A stretch of DNA of 64,000 nucleotides from Marisediminitalea oceani (GTDB lineage Bacteria > Pseudomonadota > Gammaproteobacteria > Enterobacterales > Alteromonadaceae). The translations under genes and the position numbers were made by a program. The notes below the pieces were generated by a model. It did no database searches. It was given only the letters and a program-made list of their open reading frames with translations, and was not told the origin of the DNA. Where the stretch lies: positions 1 to 64,000 of the forward strand of contig NZ_RCUA01000010.1 of the NCBI RefSeq assembly GCF_003731635.1, read 5' to 3'. Positions 55,906 through 63,871 of the stretch are shown here, one piece after another. Every line of letters starts with the position of its first letter. Position 1 is the stretch's first letter.

Positions 55906-56945
55906 ATCCCGGAAACGCCAAGGGCGTTATCCGGGATCCCCTGAACCGTCTGATTAACCTAATCAATCTCACGTTTTATACCCCGGAAGCTTCGCAGAAG
56001 CTATCCGGGGTCTCAATGTCATCCCGGAATTTTCGCAGAAAATATCCGGGCCCCCCTTTCCTGTTACCGTGGGTCTGAAAAGAGCGACATAAAAAGCGGG
56101 ACATTTTAAATGAGTCACGCTGCTCAGGAGATACCGGCTCAGAGGCCGGTATGACAGCTTATTTTTGACCGAAATACTTCTCCCTACCACCCCGGAAGCT
56201 TCGCAGAAAATATCCGGGACCTCCGTCTTTGTTATCGCAGGCTCAAAAGCTCTTCGAACGATTACGCAACGCTGTAGAAATTGAAATCAATGCCCGCATC
56301 AGCATTCTGTCGGGGTGCCGACTACACCCAGAGGGGAGGTGGCTCCCCTCTGGACTCCTGCCAGTTCTTTAATCGCGAAGTTGCATACTGGTGGCGGGCA
56401 GGTAAAACCTATCGCCCAGAGCGGGCGTCCTGCCCGCGCTGGCCGGAGCCGACATCCATGACGGCTCTACGCTTTTACTTGATCTGCGCGCCACCAGTAT
56501 TTCGCGATACAAAGAACCAAATTAAAAGCAGGATGTTTTAAATGAATCATGCTGCTCATGAGATACCGGCTCGGTGGCCGGTATGACAGATTTTTTTGAC
56601 CAGAATACTTTTCACAGTCATCCCGGAATTTTCGCAGAAAATATCCGGGCCCCCTTCCCTGTTGTCGTGGGTCTGAAACATCAGAATAAAAAACGGGATA
56701 TTTTAAATGAGTCATGCTGCTCAGGAGATACCGGCTCGGTGGCCGGTATGACAGATTTTTTTGACCGGAATACTTTTCACAGTCATCCCGGAATTTTCGC
56801 AGAAAATATCCGGGATCCCCTTCTCTGTTATCGTGGGTCTAAACGTCAAAATAAAAAGCGGGATGTTTTTCATAAGTCACGCAGCTCAGGAGATACCGGC
56901 TTGGAGGCCGGTATGACGGTACTTTTTATCGGGGTCTTCTTCCAC
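55906..56945. repeat. Intergenic array of hairpin repeats, about 165-bp period
   Basis: About 1 kb without genes. Two hairpin types alternate. Type 1 is a CCCGGA...TCCGGG palindrome, at 55906-55937, 55980-56011, 56021-56050, about 56190-56219, 56620-56649 and 56785-56814. Type 2 is TACCGGCT...GGCCGGTA, at 56132-56151, 56564-56583, 56729-56748 and 56894-56913. From 56021 on they form four direct units of about 165-168 bp that also share the linker (GGATGTTTTAAATGA-like, TTTTTGACCG-like). Unit 2 is interrupted by a foldback element. The type 2 hairpin also occurs at the left edge of the window. Confidence 0.85.
56249..56521. mobile_element. Foldback (MITE-like) insertion in the repeat array
   Basis: About 265 bp inserted into one repeat unit. 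Near its right side, imperfect inverted arms at 56365-56396 and 56489-56516 share TTCTTT, ATCGCGAA and ATACTGGTGGCG. Between or beside them lie smaller palindromes, including a perfect 10-bp stem at 56328-56353 (CCAGAGGGGA/TCCCCTCTGG). No transposase is encoded. Target-site duplication is not clear, so the borders are approximate. Confidence 0.5.
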
Positions 56946-56950
56946 TTTCT

Positions 56951-57547
56951 CTATTCTGTACCAAACACTTCAGCAATACTCCCGGCAATATCATGGCCGC
57001 CTTTATCACTGTCCCAGGTTACCGATATCACGCACCAACGCCTACCGTCGTTTACCAACTGGAAGGTATTAATACCTTTCGAGTAAGCCGGTTTGTTCGG
57101 TGATTCCCGCGATTCGTAGGCACTGATAACCGTTGCCATGTGTCCTACCTGAATGGTTTGATTGTAAGTCTCGGTTTCATAAAACCCCACATCCTTAAAC
57201 AGTAATTTATTGAGTTCCACAAACTCACTAGCAGTCAGTACTGAAATATCCGGCATCCCCTCGCGATGAAACAACGGTGTGATGGTCGCAGTGGGCGCAA
57301 ACAGCTCGTGGAGTAACTGCCAGTTACGTTCCTCGCCCGGCGCGCCAGACACCACGTCATATAAAGCCGGTACGATGTTAGGCAAGGTCTCAGCCTCACT
57401 TCGAAAAGGGCCACAAAAATGCGGTTCTTCCAGCACCACAGCGGCCTGCACCTCCTGCGGGACAAACAGGTTCAGAATCATCACTAACAGAGCCAGAACA
57501 ATGGCCAGTTTTGGTGCGCAGAAACAAGGTTTAAAACTAAATAGCAT
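56951..57547 (-). CDS. Secreted NTF2-like (SnoaL-type) protein
   Basis: A 198-residue exported protein with a hydrophobic signal or anchor (about 12-35, ending EVQAA). The body (WQLLHELFAPTATITPLFH, then VGHMATVISAYESRE and NTFQLVNDGRRWCVISVTWD) has the cone-shaped NTF2-like pattern of SnoaL/DUF4440 proteins. Such domains are enzymes or binding modules; no catalytic residue can be assigned. It stands alone beside the repeat array and divergent from the TonB-type gene. Confidence 0.8.
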   Translation of the reverse strand: MLFSFKPCFCAPKLAIVLALLVMILNLFVPQEVQAAVVLEEPHFCGPFRSEAETLPNIVPALYDVVSGAPGEERNWQLLHELFAPTATITPLFHREGMPDISVLTASEFVELNKLLFKDVGFYETETYNQTIQVGHMATVISAYESRESPNKPAYSKGINTFQLVNDGRRWCVISVTWDSDKGGHDIAGSIAEVFGTE

Positions 57548-57932
57548 CGTGTAATTTTCCGTGGCTAAATGATGTGAGCTAGCTTACAACCTGACTCAAT
57601 AGCATGTTGCACCGGGCGTCCAAAACTCTTAACCAATCGTATAATTTACACAAAGTGTGTCTCCACTGAACGTTATTCACAGTAGGCTTATCTTATTAAG
57701 CTCGTTTTTCGCCCGATAAATAGCTACCTTTACGCCGCTAATCAGTGCATTGTCGGACACACAAAAAACAATAATAATGCGGTCCGTCCACAGCTATAAC
57801 CTGCCACCAAGAGCAGAGCTGATCACTGGCTGCGTAGACAAAAATAACTCACGCTCAGCCCGCTCACTGATTAAGTACCTATTGCCTGAAAACGACCGTT
57901 ATTTTTTGTTGTTCTTCTTTGAAGGGAAATTA
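57548..57932. other. 385-bp divergent intergenic region
   Basis: This lies between the NTF2-like gene and the barrel gene. An ORF extends upstream in frame with the barrel gene from 57750, but the good ribosome-binding site and signal peptide begin at 57933. I see no terminator, RNA gene or clear promoter boxes. Confidence 0.6.
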
Positions 57933-60013
57933 ATGTCTAGTGATACCCGAAAAGGTCATAGGGGCCTTAAGGCAGTCGGTACACCGTTTAAATTATCGTT
58001 ACTCTCTGTCATTCTGACTACGTTGTCGGTTACCGGCACCACATCTGCACAAACCACAGCTTCGCCCGTGGCAAGACCCTCTGATGATGCGACCAATCAA
58101 AGCGCCAGGGAGCGCGATAGGATCTTGCTCAAGCGTAATCCCATTGCTTCTGAATATCAGGGTAACGATACCCCCGGGCGCTTTTTCAGCGCGGTGACCG
58201 ATGCCGAAGGCGTGGACTTTCGAGGTCAGTTTCGTTTATCAAAAGGCAGGGCCACCGCCCATGATGCAGAGCTTGAAGCCAATGTAAGTTATCAGGACGT
58301 GGCCCGCGAATATACCCCTGGTGGTAGTATTAAGCTGGCCAAAAGTTTTGACCGCTGGCGCTTACAGTTTAACGCCCAGAGAAACAGCCTGGAGCGAATA
58401 GTCGATTTTTATGAGGCACGCTGGCTATCCATTGATGCCCCGGAGGCACCTGAACAACAGGCTTTATTGCTGGGTTTCCCCCGCTACAGCCAGGACCAGT
58501 TTGATACCACCAGCACCAATATGCAGTGGCGCGCTGACTACGTACTTTCTGAACACACTTATTTTACCTACGAAGGCATGTCGACCAACTACGACGATAT
58601 CGCCACTCGTAACCGGCTGGAATACCAAATTGGCGCCGGAACCATTGATAGCGCCGAACTCAGTGATGACGGCTCCACCTTAAGCGATGTCAGCGTGTCC
58701 GACTCGCGTATTCGCCGTTACTTTCACAGAATGGAAACCGCCAGGGATATTCATCGCCATCGCCTCGGCGTCAATTACGAAACCGACACCAGCGCGTTTG
58801 AAGCTGGCGTCTACTTTAGCCGTTGGGTCAACGAGCGACTCTGGCTGCCCTGGAATTTTGTCGATCAGGGTCTGACAGCTAACTACTCTATTGACAGCCC
58901 TTACCTGCCGCTAATCCGGAGCAATTTAATTTTAACCCGGCTCAATCCTTTTTAGAGTCTATCCAGGATATCTATACCAGCGAAGAAACGGTGAGCTCAG
59001 CTTACATTGATGCATATCAGCAACGGGCATCCTGGTTCTGGCGTCTTGGCCTGCGTTATGAGAAAACCGAAACCAGCACTCGTGGTGCAGTGAGCGGGCC
59101 CACCGAAGCCGGTATTGCAAACCTTGGCGATCAGATCACCAGTGTGGACGTGGCCGGTCTGACTATCGAAGAAAACTTCAGCCACTTTGATGCGGCATTT
59201 GTGGAAGGCGGTAACAGCTATCAGCATCTGCTGCCATCTCTGGAATTACGCTACCAGTTATCCGCCTCCACCCGTTTAAAGTTTAATTATTTTGAGCAGC
59301 TAATGCGCCCGCAGTATTTTGATACGGTGCGTTACCGCCGCATTAATCCTCCCACCCGCACCATTACGGAAGGCTCACCGGACCTTGAGGCCACCACCAT
59401 TGTTAACTGGTTTGCCGGGCTCGAATATACTCACACCCGGGTAGGAAAACTCTATGCCGGGGTGTACTACAACGATATCGCGGACTTCTTCTATGATTCC
59501 AGGGTTACAGAAGAACTCGACGGCATTGTGTACGATGTAACCCGGGTGGAAAATGGCAAGGACGGCTTTATCCGCGGTGTGCAAACCTACTGGTCACAGC
59601 AGTTTACCGATACCGGGCTGGCTCTGATTGATATCAAAGCCTCTTACACCTACTCAGATACTCAAGCCAATCTGGCCGACCGCGCTATTGCCATGCCGGA
59701 GCGGGCTGAGCATCGCCTGATGCTTAACCTGTTGGTTAAGAATAATCAGTGGCAATATACCACTAATCTGGCCTGGCAAAGTGAGGCGCTGGATGATGTA
59801 GGCGCCGATGCCCAACAGGACACCATCAGAGAGAAAGTCCTTTCGTGGAACCAGTCTTTCAGCTGGCGCTTCAGTGAGCACCTGAGCACAAAATTCAGCC
59901 TGAATAATATTCTTAACTACCCGGACCGTTCTTATCTCAGCGAGCAAAAGCGGGTTATTAATAATCTGTACAGCGGTACCACAGCCAAATTGAGCTTACG
60001 CTACACCTTTTAG
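57933..60013 (+). pseudogene. TonB-dependent-receptor-like outer-membrane barrel, frameshifted, no plug domain
   Basis: Two adjacent reading frames encode one protein. The first (57933-58955) starts with AGGG before the ATG and a signal peptide (ending TTSAQT). The second continues in the -1 frame and ends SLRYTF with the terminal aromatic of outer-membrane proteins. The frames overlap between 58895 and 58955, best joined near 58910 (SPYLP to ANPEQF), where one base seems lost. The barrel resembles TonB-dependent receptors (AGVYYNDIADFFYDS, repeated beta-strands, KFSLNNILNYPDRSYL). Only about 65-75 residues separate the signal peptide from the first barrel strand, too few for the usual plug of about 120 residues. 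It may be a pseudogene, or a sequencing error in a plug-less barrel gene. Confidence 0.78.
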
Positions 60014-60614: not shown

Positions 60615-62123
60615 GTGTTTCGCTGCTATACCCTTGTTCTCGGTTTGATGTGTGTAAGCTCACTGTTTATAGCTACTGCGTGTCAGTCTAAACAGCTTAC
60701 CGTGCTCTATGCAGCTGAACTGCCTCTTATCATTAATCCGCCGCATGGCAGCTACGCCAATTTAGCTACTCTGGTTAAGCAAACCAGAGACACTCAACAA
60801 CCCAGTCTGTTCTTATTTGGCGGCGGTAGCCTGGCCCCCAGCATGCTTTCATCCTTCGACCGTGGTGCGCATATTATCGATATCCTCAACACTATCGAAC
60901 CGGATGCCATGGGCGTAGCCAAGCGAGAGTTCAGTTACTTTGAGGATGAGCTGTCGTTACGCGCCTATGAGGCTGCTTTCCCGTTAGTATTGAGCAACGT
61001 GACCGATCCACTCACCCGGCGGGAACTCGAAGGTACCTGGCAGGATATCATTCTTGAAAGAGGGGGTGTCAGGGTTGGCATTCTTACGGTGATAGCGAGC
61101 GCTTCCTCAGAAGAGTACTTAATGCACCGGCTGCAGATTAACTCACCCTACGACACCATAGTCAGCCGTGCCAACGCGCTCAGGGAACGCGGCGCAGAAT
61201 TAGTTGTGCTGATGGTTTCAGACGAATTACCTTTTATTAATAAGCTATTGAGTCAATCGCAAGTCGATCTGGTGTTACGCAGCGATCCTTACTATGTTGA
61301 GCCGGTGGCGCCTGATGAAAAGCCGCGGCCAAACTATGTCATCGTCACCAGCGAAGCCGCCGCCGCGAAAGTGAGCATTGAGTGGCCACAAGGCAATCCT
61401 GCCGAGGCTCAGTACGAAGTGGTACAACTGCCCCTTAGCGACTACCCGAAAGATCCGGTGATTGCCGAACAGGTAGCCAGCTATGATAACCGGATTACCG
61501 CACTGCTTAGTGAACAGGTAGCCCGTCTTACCAGCGAAATGGATACTACGCGAAATGCCGTACGTACCCGTGAGAATGGCTTTGGAAACCTGGTGAGCGA
61601 TGCCTTAAAAGAAGCCAGTCACACCGACGTGGCAATCATCAACGGCGGCGCTATCCGAGGTGAGCGCAGTTATCGTGAGGGGCACCTGTTAACCCGTAAA
61701 GATATTACCAGCGAACTGCCGTTTCGAAATCATATCCGGGTACTGAGGATCACCGGAGCTGATTTAAAGTCAGCACTGGAAAACGGTGTGAGCAGGGTTG
61801 AAGACGCCTCAGGCCGTTTCCCACATGTTTCTGGTATGCAGTTCAAAGTGCAGCTTTCTGCTGCGCCGGGGAATCGAGTGAAAGAGCTCACTATTAACGG
61901 CACGCCTATGGAACCGGGCCGTATCTATTCGCTTGCCACTTCCGATTATCTGGCAAATGGCGGTGACGGATATGACAGCCTCAAACGCGGAACTGAAGTT
62001 CCCTTTAGCCAGCAGGTTACCCCACTGATTGCCGACATCGTAATCAGTGTTCTACGACGTCAGTCTACTCTGTCTGCCACTGCAACAGGCAGAGTCAGCT
62101 TTGTAAATGGCAAGGACAGCTGA
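60615..62123 (+). CDS. 5'-nucleotidase-like lipoprotein with a dead catalytic domain
   Basis: A 502-residue UshA-like protein. A lipobox-like ATAC (Cys23) suggests membrane anchoring in the periplasm. The N-terminal metallophosphatase fold is recognisable by alignment but its metal ligands are gone: TNDxHG reads YAAELPL (32-38), GGD reads GGGS (69-72), GNHE reads AKRE (102-105), the ATHMGH region reads MVSDELP, and GGHS reads LRSDPYY. The C-terminal 5'-nucleotidase domain is well kept: GFGNLVSDALKEA, INGGAIRGE, LPFRNHIRVLRITG and ANGGDGYDS. It should still bind a nucleotide-like ligand but not hydrolyse it. The start is GTG after AGAGG. The stop is 1 bp before a diguanylate cyclase gene, so the pair likely forms a sensor unit. 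Confidence 0.9.
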   Translation: MFRCYTLVLGLMCVSSLFIATACQSKQLTVLYAAELPLIINPPHGSYANLATLVKQTRDTQQPSLFLFGGGSLAPSMLSSFDRGAHIIDILNTIEPDAMGVAKREFSYFEDELSLRAYEAAFPLVLSNVTDPLTRRELEGTWQDIILERGGVRVGILTVIASASSEEYLMHRLQINSPYDTIVSRANALRERGAELVVLMVSDELPFINKLLSQSQVDLVLRSDPYYVEPVAPDEKPRPNYVIVTSEAAAAKVSIEWPQGNPAEAQYEVVQLPLSDYPKDPVIAEQVASYDNRITALLSEQVARLTSEMDTTRNAVRTRENGFGNLVSDALKEASHTDVAIINGGAIRGERSYREGHLLTRKDITSELPFRNHIRVLRITGADLKSALENGVSRVEDASGRFPHVSGMQFKVQLSAAPGNRVKELTINGTPMEPGRIYSLATSDYLANGGDGYDSLKRGTEVPFSQQVTPLIADIVISVLRRQSTLSATATGRVSFVNGKDS

Positions 62124-62124
62124 G

Positions 62125-63804
62125 ATGAACAGTCAGCAAGGGCGGCAGACTGCCAGCAAACGTCTTAAGTTCAGGGGATTATACTCGCTATCGGGGATCA
62201 TTAATTTGAGTCTGGTGACGCTGATCATCGCGGTAATGATCCTGGCATATACCACCTATTCCAAACTGTCATCATTCGAACAGTCCTTAAATTCAATGAT
62301 GGATAAATCGCTGCCCAGTGTTATTCAGTCGGGCAAACTGTATTCGCAAATGAACCTGTTGCTGAGTGGCACAGAGCAGTTATCCATGGCCAACTCAGAA
62401 GCCATGCGCAGGATAGCTACCAATGCCATCACCCGTCAGTTGCAAGGCCTGCACAAACTGTCGCTGGAAAATGAGCAAACCTACCACATTACGTCTCAGC
62501 TGAGTTCGGTAGAACGGGAACTGGATGAACTCAATGGGTTAGTAGAGCAACGTATCGCTATCAATAGCAGAATCGATCGATTAACTGCACAACTCTTCGA
62601 TCTGCAAGGCCAGATCAATACCGATCTGACTACCAACAGCACAACCACCGCCAGCACGTCCTGGTCATTATTATTCTCACGTATCATGCTGCTCTCAGCG
62701 GAGCTCACCAGCCTCGACCAGCTAAGCGAGATACGGCAGCGTCAGAGTAATCTGGATACCCTGTTTATTTCATTGTCTGAACTTGCCGATACGCTGCCGG
62801 CAGACCAACAACAAAGTGCACAGCTGGCCATTGCGGCCTTATCCGAAACCGTGTTACATCCCAATTCCGGCTTAATTGCGCTGCGTCAGTTGCAGTTAAA
62901 GATCCTCGGCCGGGTGCAAGGCAGAAGTAACTTTGTACGTAACCTGATTGCCGACTACGCCCGTTTAAATGAATTTGAATCTCATCAGCTAAATCAGGCT
63001 GTACTGGGCCGGGCGGCGAAAACCTCCCGACTAGTTGAGCAACAGGTAAAACAGGCCAGCCTGCTGTTTATTATTGTCCTGTTCGCTTATATTGGATTTG
63101 CCGTGTTTATCCAGCGGGTAGTAGTTAACCGGTTAAAAACCCTTAACAAACAGGTCCAGCAACGGTCCACCGGCGAGGGCCACCTCATCACCGTGAGCGG
63201 CAGGGACGAAATTACCGAGCTGGCACAGAGTTTTGAACGGTTTGCCACCACTATCGAATTACAAAAGAATACTCTGGAAGAAATGAGTCTGCGCGATGCA
63301 CTCACCGGTATAGCTAACCGCCGCGCTTTTGACGACTACTATTCCCAGGCACTCAATGTGGCTAACCGACAGCGCTGGCCACTGACCGTATTACTAATTG
63401 ATGTGGACTATTTTAAACAATATAACGATAACTATGGTCACAGTCAGGGCGACATTTGTTTAAAGCAAGTGGCCTCATTAGTTAAGCAACAGATGCCCCG
63501 TAAAACCGATATTTTAGCCCGCTACGGCGGCGAAGAATTTGCCGTACTGTTACCCGATACCAACGAACAAGGGGCGATAACGGTAGCCCGGAATATTCTG
63601 GATGCGTTTAAAAATGCGCAAATTCCCCACGACTTTAGCGGCGTTGCCGACCATGTCACCGTGAGCATTGGTATTTCTGTTGGTCAGCAACAGGATGGCA
63701 GGATCACGCTCCCCTCTGTAGAAGCTGCCGACAAAGCCCTCTACAAAGCTAAGCGAACGGGCCGTAATCGCTGGGTGAATGATGCAGATGACGACGAGCA
63801 ATAA
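62125..63804 (+). CDS. Membrane diguanylate cyclase with a large periplasmic sensor domain
   Basis: A 559-residue enzyme that makes cyclic di-GMP. It has an N-terminal helix (about 22-45), a long all-helical periplasmic region (about 46-315), a second helix (about 318-340), a HAMP-like linker and a GGDEF domain (about 395-550). The active site reads GGEEF, and the inhibitory I-site RKTD lies exactly five residues before it, so both synthesis and product feedback are expected. The periplasmic helices (SLPSVIQSGKLYSQMNLLLSG at the start) recall TorS-type sensors that listen to a binding protein. AAGGA eight bases upstream supports this ATG over one at 62107. Confidence 0.94.
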   Translation: MNSQQGRQTASKRLKFRGLYSLSGIINLSLVTLIIAVMILAYTTYSKLSSFEQSLNSMMDKSLPSVIQSGKLYSQMNLLLSGTEQLSMANSEAMRRIATNAITRQLQGLHKLSLENEQTYHITSQLSSVERELDELNGLVEQRIAINSRIDRLTAQLFDLQGQINTDLTTNSTTTASTSWSLLFSRIMLLSAELTSLDQLSEIRQRQSNLDTLFISLSELADTLPADQQQSAQLAIAALSETVLHPNSGLIALRQLQLKILGRVQGRSNFVRNLIADYARLNEFESHQLNQAVLGRAAKTSRLVEQQVKQASLLFIIVLFAYIGFAVFIQRVVVNRLKTLNKQVQQRSTGEGHLITVSGRDEITELAQSFERFATTIELQKNTLEEMSLRDALTGIANRRAFDDYYSQALNVANRQRWPLTVLLIDVDYFKQYNDNYGHSQGDICLKQVASLVKQQMPRKTDILARYGGEEFAVLLPDTNEQGAITVARNILDAFKNAQIPHDFSGVADHVTVSIGISVGQQQDGRITLPSVEAADKALYKAKRTGRNRWVNDADDDEQ

Positions 63805-63806
63805 TG

Positions 63807-63871
63807 AAATCAAGGGGTCAGAGTCAGTTAATTGCTAACAGATTAATTAACTGACTCTGACCCCTTGATTT
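63807..63871. repeat. Perfect 27-bp inverted repeat (REP/RAYT type)
   Basis: Arms 63807-63833 and 63845-63871 are exact reverse complements, with an 11-base loop. They contain AAGGGGTCAGAGTCA. A shorter copy of the arm (TGACCCC-TTTATTT, 63874-63887) follows. GGGGTCAGAGT is a motif I associate with REP elements mobilised by RAYT transposases; no such gene is in the window. Located between convergent genes, it could also act as a bidirectional terminator. Confidence 0.8.

Follow-up and report, generated by a model that had tools for sequence, protein, structure and literature searches.

To our knowledge, few enzymes that handle cyclic diguanosine monophosphate (c-di-GMP) have a known extracellular signal. 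Some described systems couple a membrane signalling enzyme to a separate periplasmic protein: TorT and TorS, which form the receptor for trimethylamine N-oxide, are encoded alongside each other, and studies of Vibrio cholerae describe NspS, encoded immediately upstream of mbaA, as detecting extracellular norspermidine and binding MbaA, which then makes c-di-GMP, a pathway linked to lysis sensing (PMC8079147, PMC10914755). In the dCache_1PU purine sensors, for example the diguanylate cyclase VC2224, purines control the cyclase through an in-built dCache domain (PMC11245519). For the 5'-nucleotidase relative CpdB it is reported that its isolated C domain is inactive, yet holds the substrate-binding site (PMC7922932). 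The present analysis concerns two adjacent genes in a 64,000-nucleotide stretch of Marisediminitalea oceani DNA (the window). The first codes for a 5'-nucleotidase homologue that has lost its metal site (P0001, called dead below) and the second for a membrane diguanylate cyclase (P0002).

The window pair resembles NspS-MbaA in placing the gene of a periplasmic, here putative, ligand-binding protein upstream of that of a membrane GGDEF protein with c-di-GMP as output. It differs in its components: NspS-MbaA joins a periplasmic binding protein for polyamines to a GGDEF-EAL enzyme, the window pair a dead 5'-nucleotidase fold to a GGDEF domain alone (a kinase in some relatives). With TorT-TorS it shares the predicted sensor fold (3i9y), a HAMP domain and a separate periplasmic partner encoded alongside. 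TorT-like partners, however, belong to Peripla_BP and their genes are divergently arranged (L143, L212, L216), and TorS is a hybrid histidine kinase where the window has GGDEF; the relatives L110 and L111 resemble TorS in their output. The analogy with both systems, drawn in an earlier note made from the letters of this DNA, is supported. P0001 has the entire fold and carboxyl-terminal pocket of the UshA/CD73/CpdB superfamily, but it lacks the metal site, has a partner gene and is not expected to catalyse. Signalling by dCache_1PU sensors such as VC2224 likewise leads from extracellular purine to c-di-GMP, with the ligand domain within the cyclase and not in a separate pseudoenzyme.

We privilege the reading, at a probability of about 0.62, that the two genes form one receptor in which the dead nucleotidase binds a nucleoside or nucleotide and switches the cyclase, so that extracellular nucleotide is read as c-di-GMP. 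The overall interpretation of the earlier note is borne out in part, namely in the dead enzyme with an intact pocket, the single sensor family, the TorS fold and the analogy with receptors that use periplasmic binding proteins. Judged from sequence, the widespread receptor-like unit is real and would be a variation on the scheme of a periplasmic binding protein plus a membrane signalling enzyme, with a pseudoenzyme as putative ligand subunit. The open-access literature searched, which holds few subscription papers, gave no description of a sensor paired with an inactive nucleotidase, and the main text of the review PMC8846402 does not once use the word nucleotidase.

By its predicted model (pLDDT, the predicted local distance difference test, 87.7), P0001 is still a two-domain 5'-nucleotidase fold. 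Its top Foldseek match is 2z1a (E 1.8e-41) and its amino-terminal half superposes on 3jyf_B over 275 residues at 2.5 A. Pfam gives 5_nucleotid_C as the sole match (E 5e-39), in agreement with the UshA-type carboxyl-terminal nucleotide-binding domain recognised earlier, and detects in this protein neither a Metallophos domain nor a solute-binding-protein domain, the fold being that of a nucleotidase. Residue positions refer to Escherichia coli UshA (L031, NC_000913) aligned with active relatives, its ligand motifs lying at the expected residue numbers, and all counts depend on these MAFFT alignments. We take UshA D41, H43, D84, N116, H217, H252 and H/Q254 to be metal ligands, H117 to be catalytic, and R375, R379, R410, F429, G458, F498 and D504 to line the nucleotide pocket. 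At D41, H43, D84, N116, H117, H217, H252 and Q254 the window protein has E, P, G, K, R, S, D and Y. The claim that all metal-ligand motifs are replaced is therefore correct (0/8 kept), and 7/7 pocket positions are retained (R313, R317, R348, F370, G400, Y445, D451).

The 84 dead sequences (80 named loci, L178-L180 and the window) keep none of the eight ligands in 37 cases, one in 43 and two in 4, with H43, H117 and H217 present in none; their pocket is 7/7 in 64, 6/7 in 19 and 5/7 in 1. The 48 active sequences keep 7 or 8 ligands in 43 cases, 6 in 2 and 5 in 3, with pocket residues 7/7 in 22 and 6/7 in 26. As an aside on these metal-intact relatives, Y replaces H at UshA H43 in 23 of the 48 rows, many of them among L181-L210. 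Among the 121 phmmer sequences listed (the query and 120 of 445 matches), the H117 position holds R 118 times and S 3 times, never H. The replacement residues at the old active site are conserved in this set, as K in 115 (the N116 position), R in 118 and S in 113. The R379 and R410 equivalents are kept in 121/121, and F429 and F498, the stacking positions, always carry F or Y (121/121). These residue counts across dead homologues make the loss of the metal site a family trait with its own conserved replacements; close homologues with intact ligands, a possibility raised earlier, are absent in that none of the 121 listed has H117 and the dead group stands together. The conservation of the new residues could also indicate that P0001 retains enzymatic activity through another chemistry that needs no metal, the cyclase sensing the product, but no metal ligand set survives and we regard this as very improbable.

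The retained pocket favours a nucleoside or nucleotide as ligand of the proposed receptor. F/Y370 and Y/F445 presumably form a stacking pair and the pocket arginines presumably face the phosphate. These residues, and D451, are shared with active members, which argues against a receptor of the same architecture with a ligand other than a simple nucleoside or nucleotide, for instance a nucleotide-sugar, nicotinamide adenine dinucleotide (NAD), flavin adenine dinucleotide (FAD), a cyclic dinucleotide or a phosphorylated or sulfated aromatic compound. We consider such a ligand unlikely, though worth keeping in view, as NAD nucleotidase, CpdB-type enzymes and SoxB belong to the same fold family, and the conserved basic residues K103, R104 and R371, new in or near the former active site, suggest extra negative charge on the ligand. 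The positive charge of these three residues may, we infer, compensate for the absent metals.

In every place examined, the dead nucleotidase pairs with one sensor family, one partner being divergent and one truncated. A family draw of 196 genomes was searched with separate profiles, at E <= 1e-60 for the dead nucleotidase and at E <= 1e-8 for the sensor domain. The nucleotidase occurs in 37 genomes, the sensor in the identical 37 and, at these thresholds, neither in the other 159 (Fisher p = 8e-41, relatedness ignored). All 37 pairs are adjacent on the same strand with the nucleotidase first, which excludes chance adjacency. Because some active relatives elsewhere pass E <= 1e-60, the 36 non-window nucleotidases (that of G001 taken from L149) were checked residue by residue: none has GNHE, they keep 0 ligands in 9 cases, 1 in 22 and 2 in 5, and their pocket is 7/7 in 29 and 6/7 in 7. 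The sole extra sensor match in this draw, a weak one (G594, C42), sits in a chemoreceptor-like open reading frame (ORF) and was set aside as a second sensor.

An order sample of 247 genomes, which shares five pair-carrying genomes with the family draw, has the dead nucleotidase in 13 genomes and the sensor adjoining it by profile in 11 of these, the remaining two being G676 and G731; six additional nucleotidases checked there have no GNHE and 0-1 ligands. In genome G676 (L178:3653-7074) a divergent dead nucleotidase, with NQSEF for KREF, lies beside a GGDEF protein whose helical amino-terminal part has diverged and is missed by the sensor profile; L178 is possibly a deep branch of the system. 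A contig scan kept 80 of 143 relatives, and since its patterns contained KREF and HIID the conservation of both motifs in these loci is partly built in. A P0002-like ORF lies directly downstream in 80/80 loci: 75 have GG(D/E)EF (the inhibitory-site pattern is present in 69/80), three are kinases and two are broken, L090 (7509-8956) by a stop within the GGDEF domain close to the contig end and L102 (7413-9021) by a frameshift ahead of GGDEF. The two broken cyclases, from metagenome-assembled genomes, may be assembly errors. The loci include Alteromonas, Paraglaciecola, Rheinheimera, Arsukibacterium, Marinomonas, Nitrincola, Psychromonas, Pseudoalteromonas, Kordiimonas and Desulfamplus, and 12 of 36 same-genus genomes, the window's own counted, carry the dead gene. 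Such a sensor was found in 0/46 loci of relatives without the dead motif, with flanks of ~1.5 kb (L013-L030 and L115-L142; 44 with GNHE, L024 and L134 without, L013 and L121 being one gene), and beside 0/30 wider GNHE relatives in same-strand downstream ORFs, some cut by contig ends (L181-L210).

In a maximum likelihood tree of 66 rows, made from 26 loci of the 80 together with L178-L180 and 37 active rows and given a midpoint root for drawing only, a branch supported at 100/100 separates the 29 dead sequences from the rest, and next to them stand metal-intact relatives taken from other parts of the phylum. The placement of the long branches L178 and L179 is unsure. The ratio of nonsynonymous to synonymous substitution rates (dN/dS) between close relatives is 0.05-0.08 for the whole gene and 0.06-0.12 for the dead half, from five usable pairs of seven, two being saturated. 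Over 78 pairs the nucleotidase and sensor trees have 46 of 75 splits in common, where 200 label shuffles give at most 2, and a supported sensor split conflicts with 4 of the 51 nucleotidase splits that have support. That an ordinary 5'-nucleotidase decayed locally, by chance ahead of a cyclase gene, is scarcely conceivable in the face of one dead group spread over several families and two phyla, purifying selection and 37/37 adjacency; the genome survey, the tree and dN/dS rule it out and yielded nothing in its support.

On the partner side, the superposed model of P0002 indicates that its sensor domain is a TorS sensor-domain fold. This goes beyond the helical periplasmic domain described in the earlier note, which is confirmed together with the intact active and inhibitory sites (GGEEF, RKTD). 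The Pfam family TorS_sensor_domain (PF21689) matches the cyclase at E 0.0026 and 17.7 bits, below the cut-off of 27, and 9 of 48 sensor members at E <= 0.1 (best 3.9e-6); the sensor sequence has a weak match to TorS and none to Tsr, NarX or BarA. VIA-align with the cyclase model puts the TorS entry at rank 49 with GGDEF entries ahead, and phmmer with the sensor half finds 24 proteins, of which all with listed domains are GGDEF proteins. The most conserved sensor stretch, residues 258-277, is a candidate partner-binding site.

The same pair also exists with a histidine-kinase output, which the earlier note had missed. A kinase lies downstream in Desulfamplus (L101), in a Kordiimonadaceae metagenome-assembled genome (L110) and in Kordiimonas laminariae (L111, near-identical to L180 of G1071, likewise with a kinase). 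In L110/L111 it is of the hybrid type: it contains a receiver domain and gives PAS- and Hpt-like matches, of which some fall short of the cut-off. A sensor profile built without L101, L110 and L111 matches their periplasmic parts at E 1.6e-36, 2.8e-34 and 1.1e-33 (six-sequence set). An output that can be exchanged on a conserved receptor pair is to be expected of a sensory function. Weak sensor-profile matches outside the system (~1e-8 to 1e-11) were followed at eight places of the order sample. The domain scan identified L212 and L216 as TorS proteins (PF21689 E ~1e-113), each with a Peripla_BP protein as neighbour; they and L218, of the same layout, have 963-1010 residues. L217 is a kinase adjoining a solute-binding protein, and L211, L213, L214 and L215 have 657-670 residues, the scanned L211 and L215 being kinases. 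The neighbours of L212, L216 and L217 suggest that some, not all, of the nearest outside sensors work beside periplasmic binding proteins.

This partnership of TorS-type relatives with ligand-binding proteins speaks against the idea that P0001 is a permanent part of the cyclase, structural or inhibitory, that takes up no ligand while the signal enters elsewhere. So does the pocket, with 5 to 7 of its 7 residues in 84/84 dead sequences, which a pure scaffold would not need. The evidence in hand, pairing and conservation, would also suit such a subunit and some pseudoenzymes act as scaffolds; we nevertheless hold this improbable and prefer a ligand-binding P0001.

The favoured receptor could work as follows. 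A protein of 5'-nucleotidase fold, unable by its residues to hold two metals, would be secreted to the periplasm, where its retained carboxyl-terminal pocket would bind nucleoside or nucleotide without cutting it. UshA-family enzymes close by domain rotation around bound substrate, which would supply a built-in ligand-dependent shape change. Such closure, or a plain difference between bound and free states, may alter docking on the membrane-distal part of the TorS-fold sensor, as fold and conservation suggest. Signals pass through the second transmembrane segment (TM2) and HAMP in HAMP receptors; the docking change would travel by this route and switch GGDEF, turning extracellular nucleotide into cellular c-di-GMP. 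The sensor carries a histidine kinase instead in loci of Kordiimonas type and in Desulfamplus. The signal could be nucleotides freed by lysed cells, a speculation by analogy with NspS-MbaA, and that the ligand raises c-di-GMP is a guess modelled on the reported effect of norspermidine through NspS-MbaA. More tentatively, and at somewhat less than even odds, this receptor class would have arisen once, a periplasmic 5'-nucleotidase having become a detector that binds nucleotides uncut and is tied to TorS-fold sensors with interchangeable outputs, letting marine bacteria read extracellular nucleotides as c-di-GMP. The unit points to a ligand class and a separately purifiable putative ligand-binding subunit for a cyclase family of several marine gammaproteobacterial genera. 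It would also show clearly how an enzyme fold can take over the part of a periplasmic binding protein in a receptor, and its metal-intact relatives allow comparison.

Several observations weigh against this receptor. The added basic residues K103, R104 and R371 mean that the ligand may differ from an ordinary 5'-nucleotide, and the N431-equivalent position is variable in the 84 dead sequences (N 38, S 24, D 10). In genome G731 (L179:4674-5543) the dead nucleotidase accompanies a 289-residue sensor remnant kept to TM2, GGDEF being gone. Mirror-tree distance correlations give no signal specific to the nucleotidase-sensor pair, the partial correlations of the nucleotidase with GGDEF distances (0.49 and 0.45) exceeding those with sensor distances (0.24 and 0.32). 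The Pfam family 4HB_MCP_1 is nearer for 3 of 48 sensor domains (best 4.5e-5). Of L211 and L213-L215, four of the eight outside sensors, L211 alone came under the scan for binding-protein neighbours and has none among the ORFs scanned, a sigma-54 regulator adjoining it. Neighbouring genes were rejected as a clue to the ligand, the flanks being too varied: the most frequent neighbour family occurs in 15 of 75 clustered loci (L032, L033, L042, L056 and L065 were lost from the 80 when the greedy ORF choice dropped the main ORF).

The coordinates of the locus (Table 1) and the 1 bp between the TGA stop of the first coding sequence (CDS 1) and the ATG of the second (CDS 2, 62125) proved exact on re-checking. 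An alternative in-frame CDS 2 start, ATG 62107, would overlap CDS 1 by 17 bp; among the 80 relatives a 4-base overlap is the most frequent spacing (33/80). The closest named relatives of the CDS 1 protein include Alteromonas alba, A. lipolytica and uncultured Alteromonadaceae. Its description as a lipoprotein is uncertain for the window protein, which itself has the ATAC pattern, and was rejected as a family trait, a lipobox-like pattern occurring in just 9/80 relatives and a crude signal-peptidase-I-like pattern in 73/80. The CDS 1 protein is the only PF02872 match found in the window genome, and this family search saw no ordinary UshA-type enzyme there. Public records name members of the dead group, among other names, bifunctional metallophosphatase/5'-nucleotidase, which is probably wrong. 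Membership of SoxB was rejected as well, TIGR04486 giving 77.5 bits against a cut-off of 550 and four scanned relatives scoring higher as 5'-nucleotidases.

Table 1. Features of the pseudonucleotidase-cyclase locus, in window positions.
Feature	Position	Strand	Basis or remark
CDS 1, pseudo-5'-nucleotidase P0001, 502 residues, predicted secreted	60615..62123	+	GTG start, TGA stop; predicted UshA/CD73 two-domain fold without metal site
Signal peptide region, residues 1-23, with lipobox-like ATAC	60615..60683	+	Pattern in 9/80 relatives
Dead metallophosphatase half, residues 25-265	60687..61409	+	8/8 UshA ligand positions replaced; dN/dS 0.06-0.12
KREF, residues 103-106, where active enzymes have NHEF	60921..60932	+	Alignment
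5_nucleotid_C nucleotide-binding domain PF02872, residues 304-457	61524..61985	+	Pfam E 5e-39; pocket residues kept, R313 included in the stretch
CDS 2, predicted TorS-type sensor diguanylate cyclase P0002, 559 residues	62125..63804	+	ATG start
Periplasmic helical sensor region, residues 64-289	62314..62991	+	Model superposes on TorS sensor domain 3i9y
Most conserved 20-residue sensor stretch, residues 258-277	62896..62955	+	Membrane-distal, on helix leading to TM2
HAMP domain, residues 329-378	63109..63258	+	Pfam
GGDEF domain, residues 389-549	63289..63771	+	Pfam E 7.2e-49
Inhibitory site RxxD (RKTD)	63499..63510	+	Motif intact
Active site GGEEF	63526..63540	+	Motif intact

A promoter and terminator scan gave no more sites than shuffled sequences. 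Directly 3' of the cyclase gene lies a perfect inverted repeat with 27-bp arms (63807-63871), which has a DNA fold z of -12.7 and is trailed by another, partial copy (GACCCCTTTATTTGG); the repeat could serve as a terminator or represent a small mobile palindrome. Upstream of the pair, a gene that by our reading of its sequence would be TonB-dependent-receptor-like (57750-60013) appears to be broken by a frameshift into ORFs 57750-58955 and 58991-60013, which lie in different frames; it may be a pseudogene or an assembly error. The ORF at 56574-57086 contains a repeated peptide (AGMTDFF..NTFHSHPGIFAENIR) and is probably an intergenic DNA repeat, not a gene.

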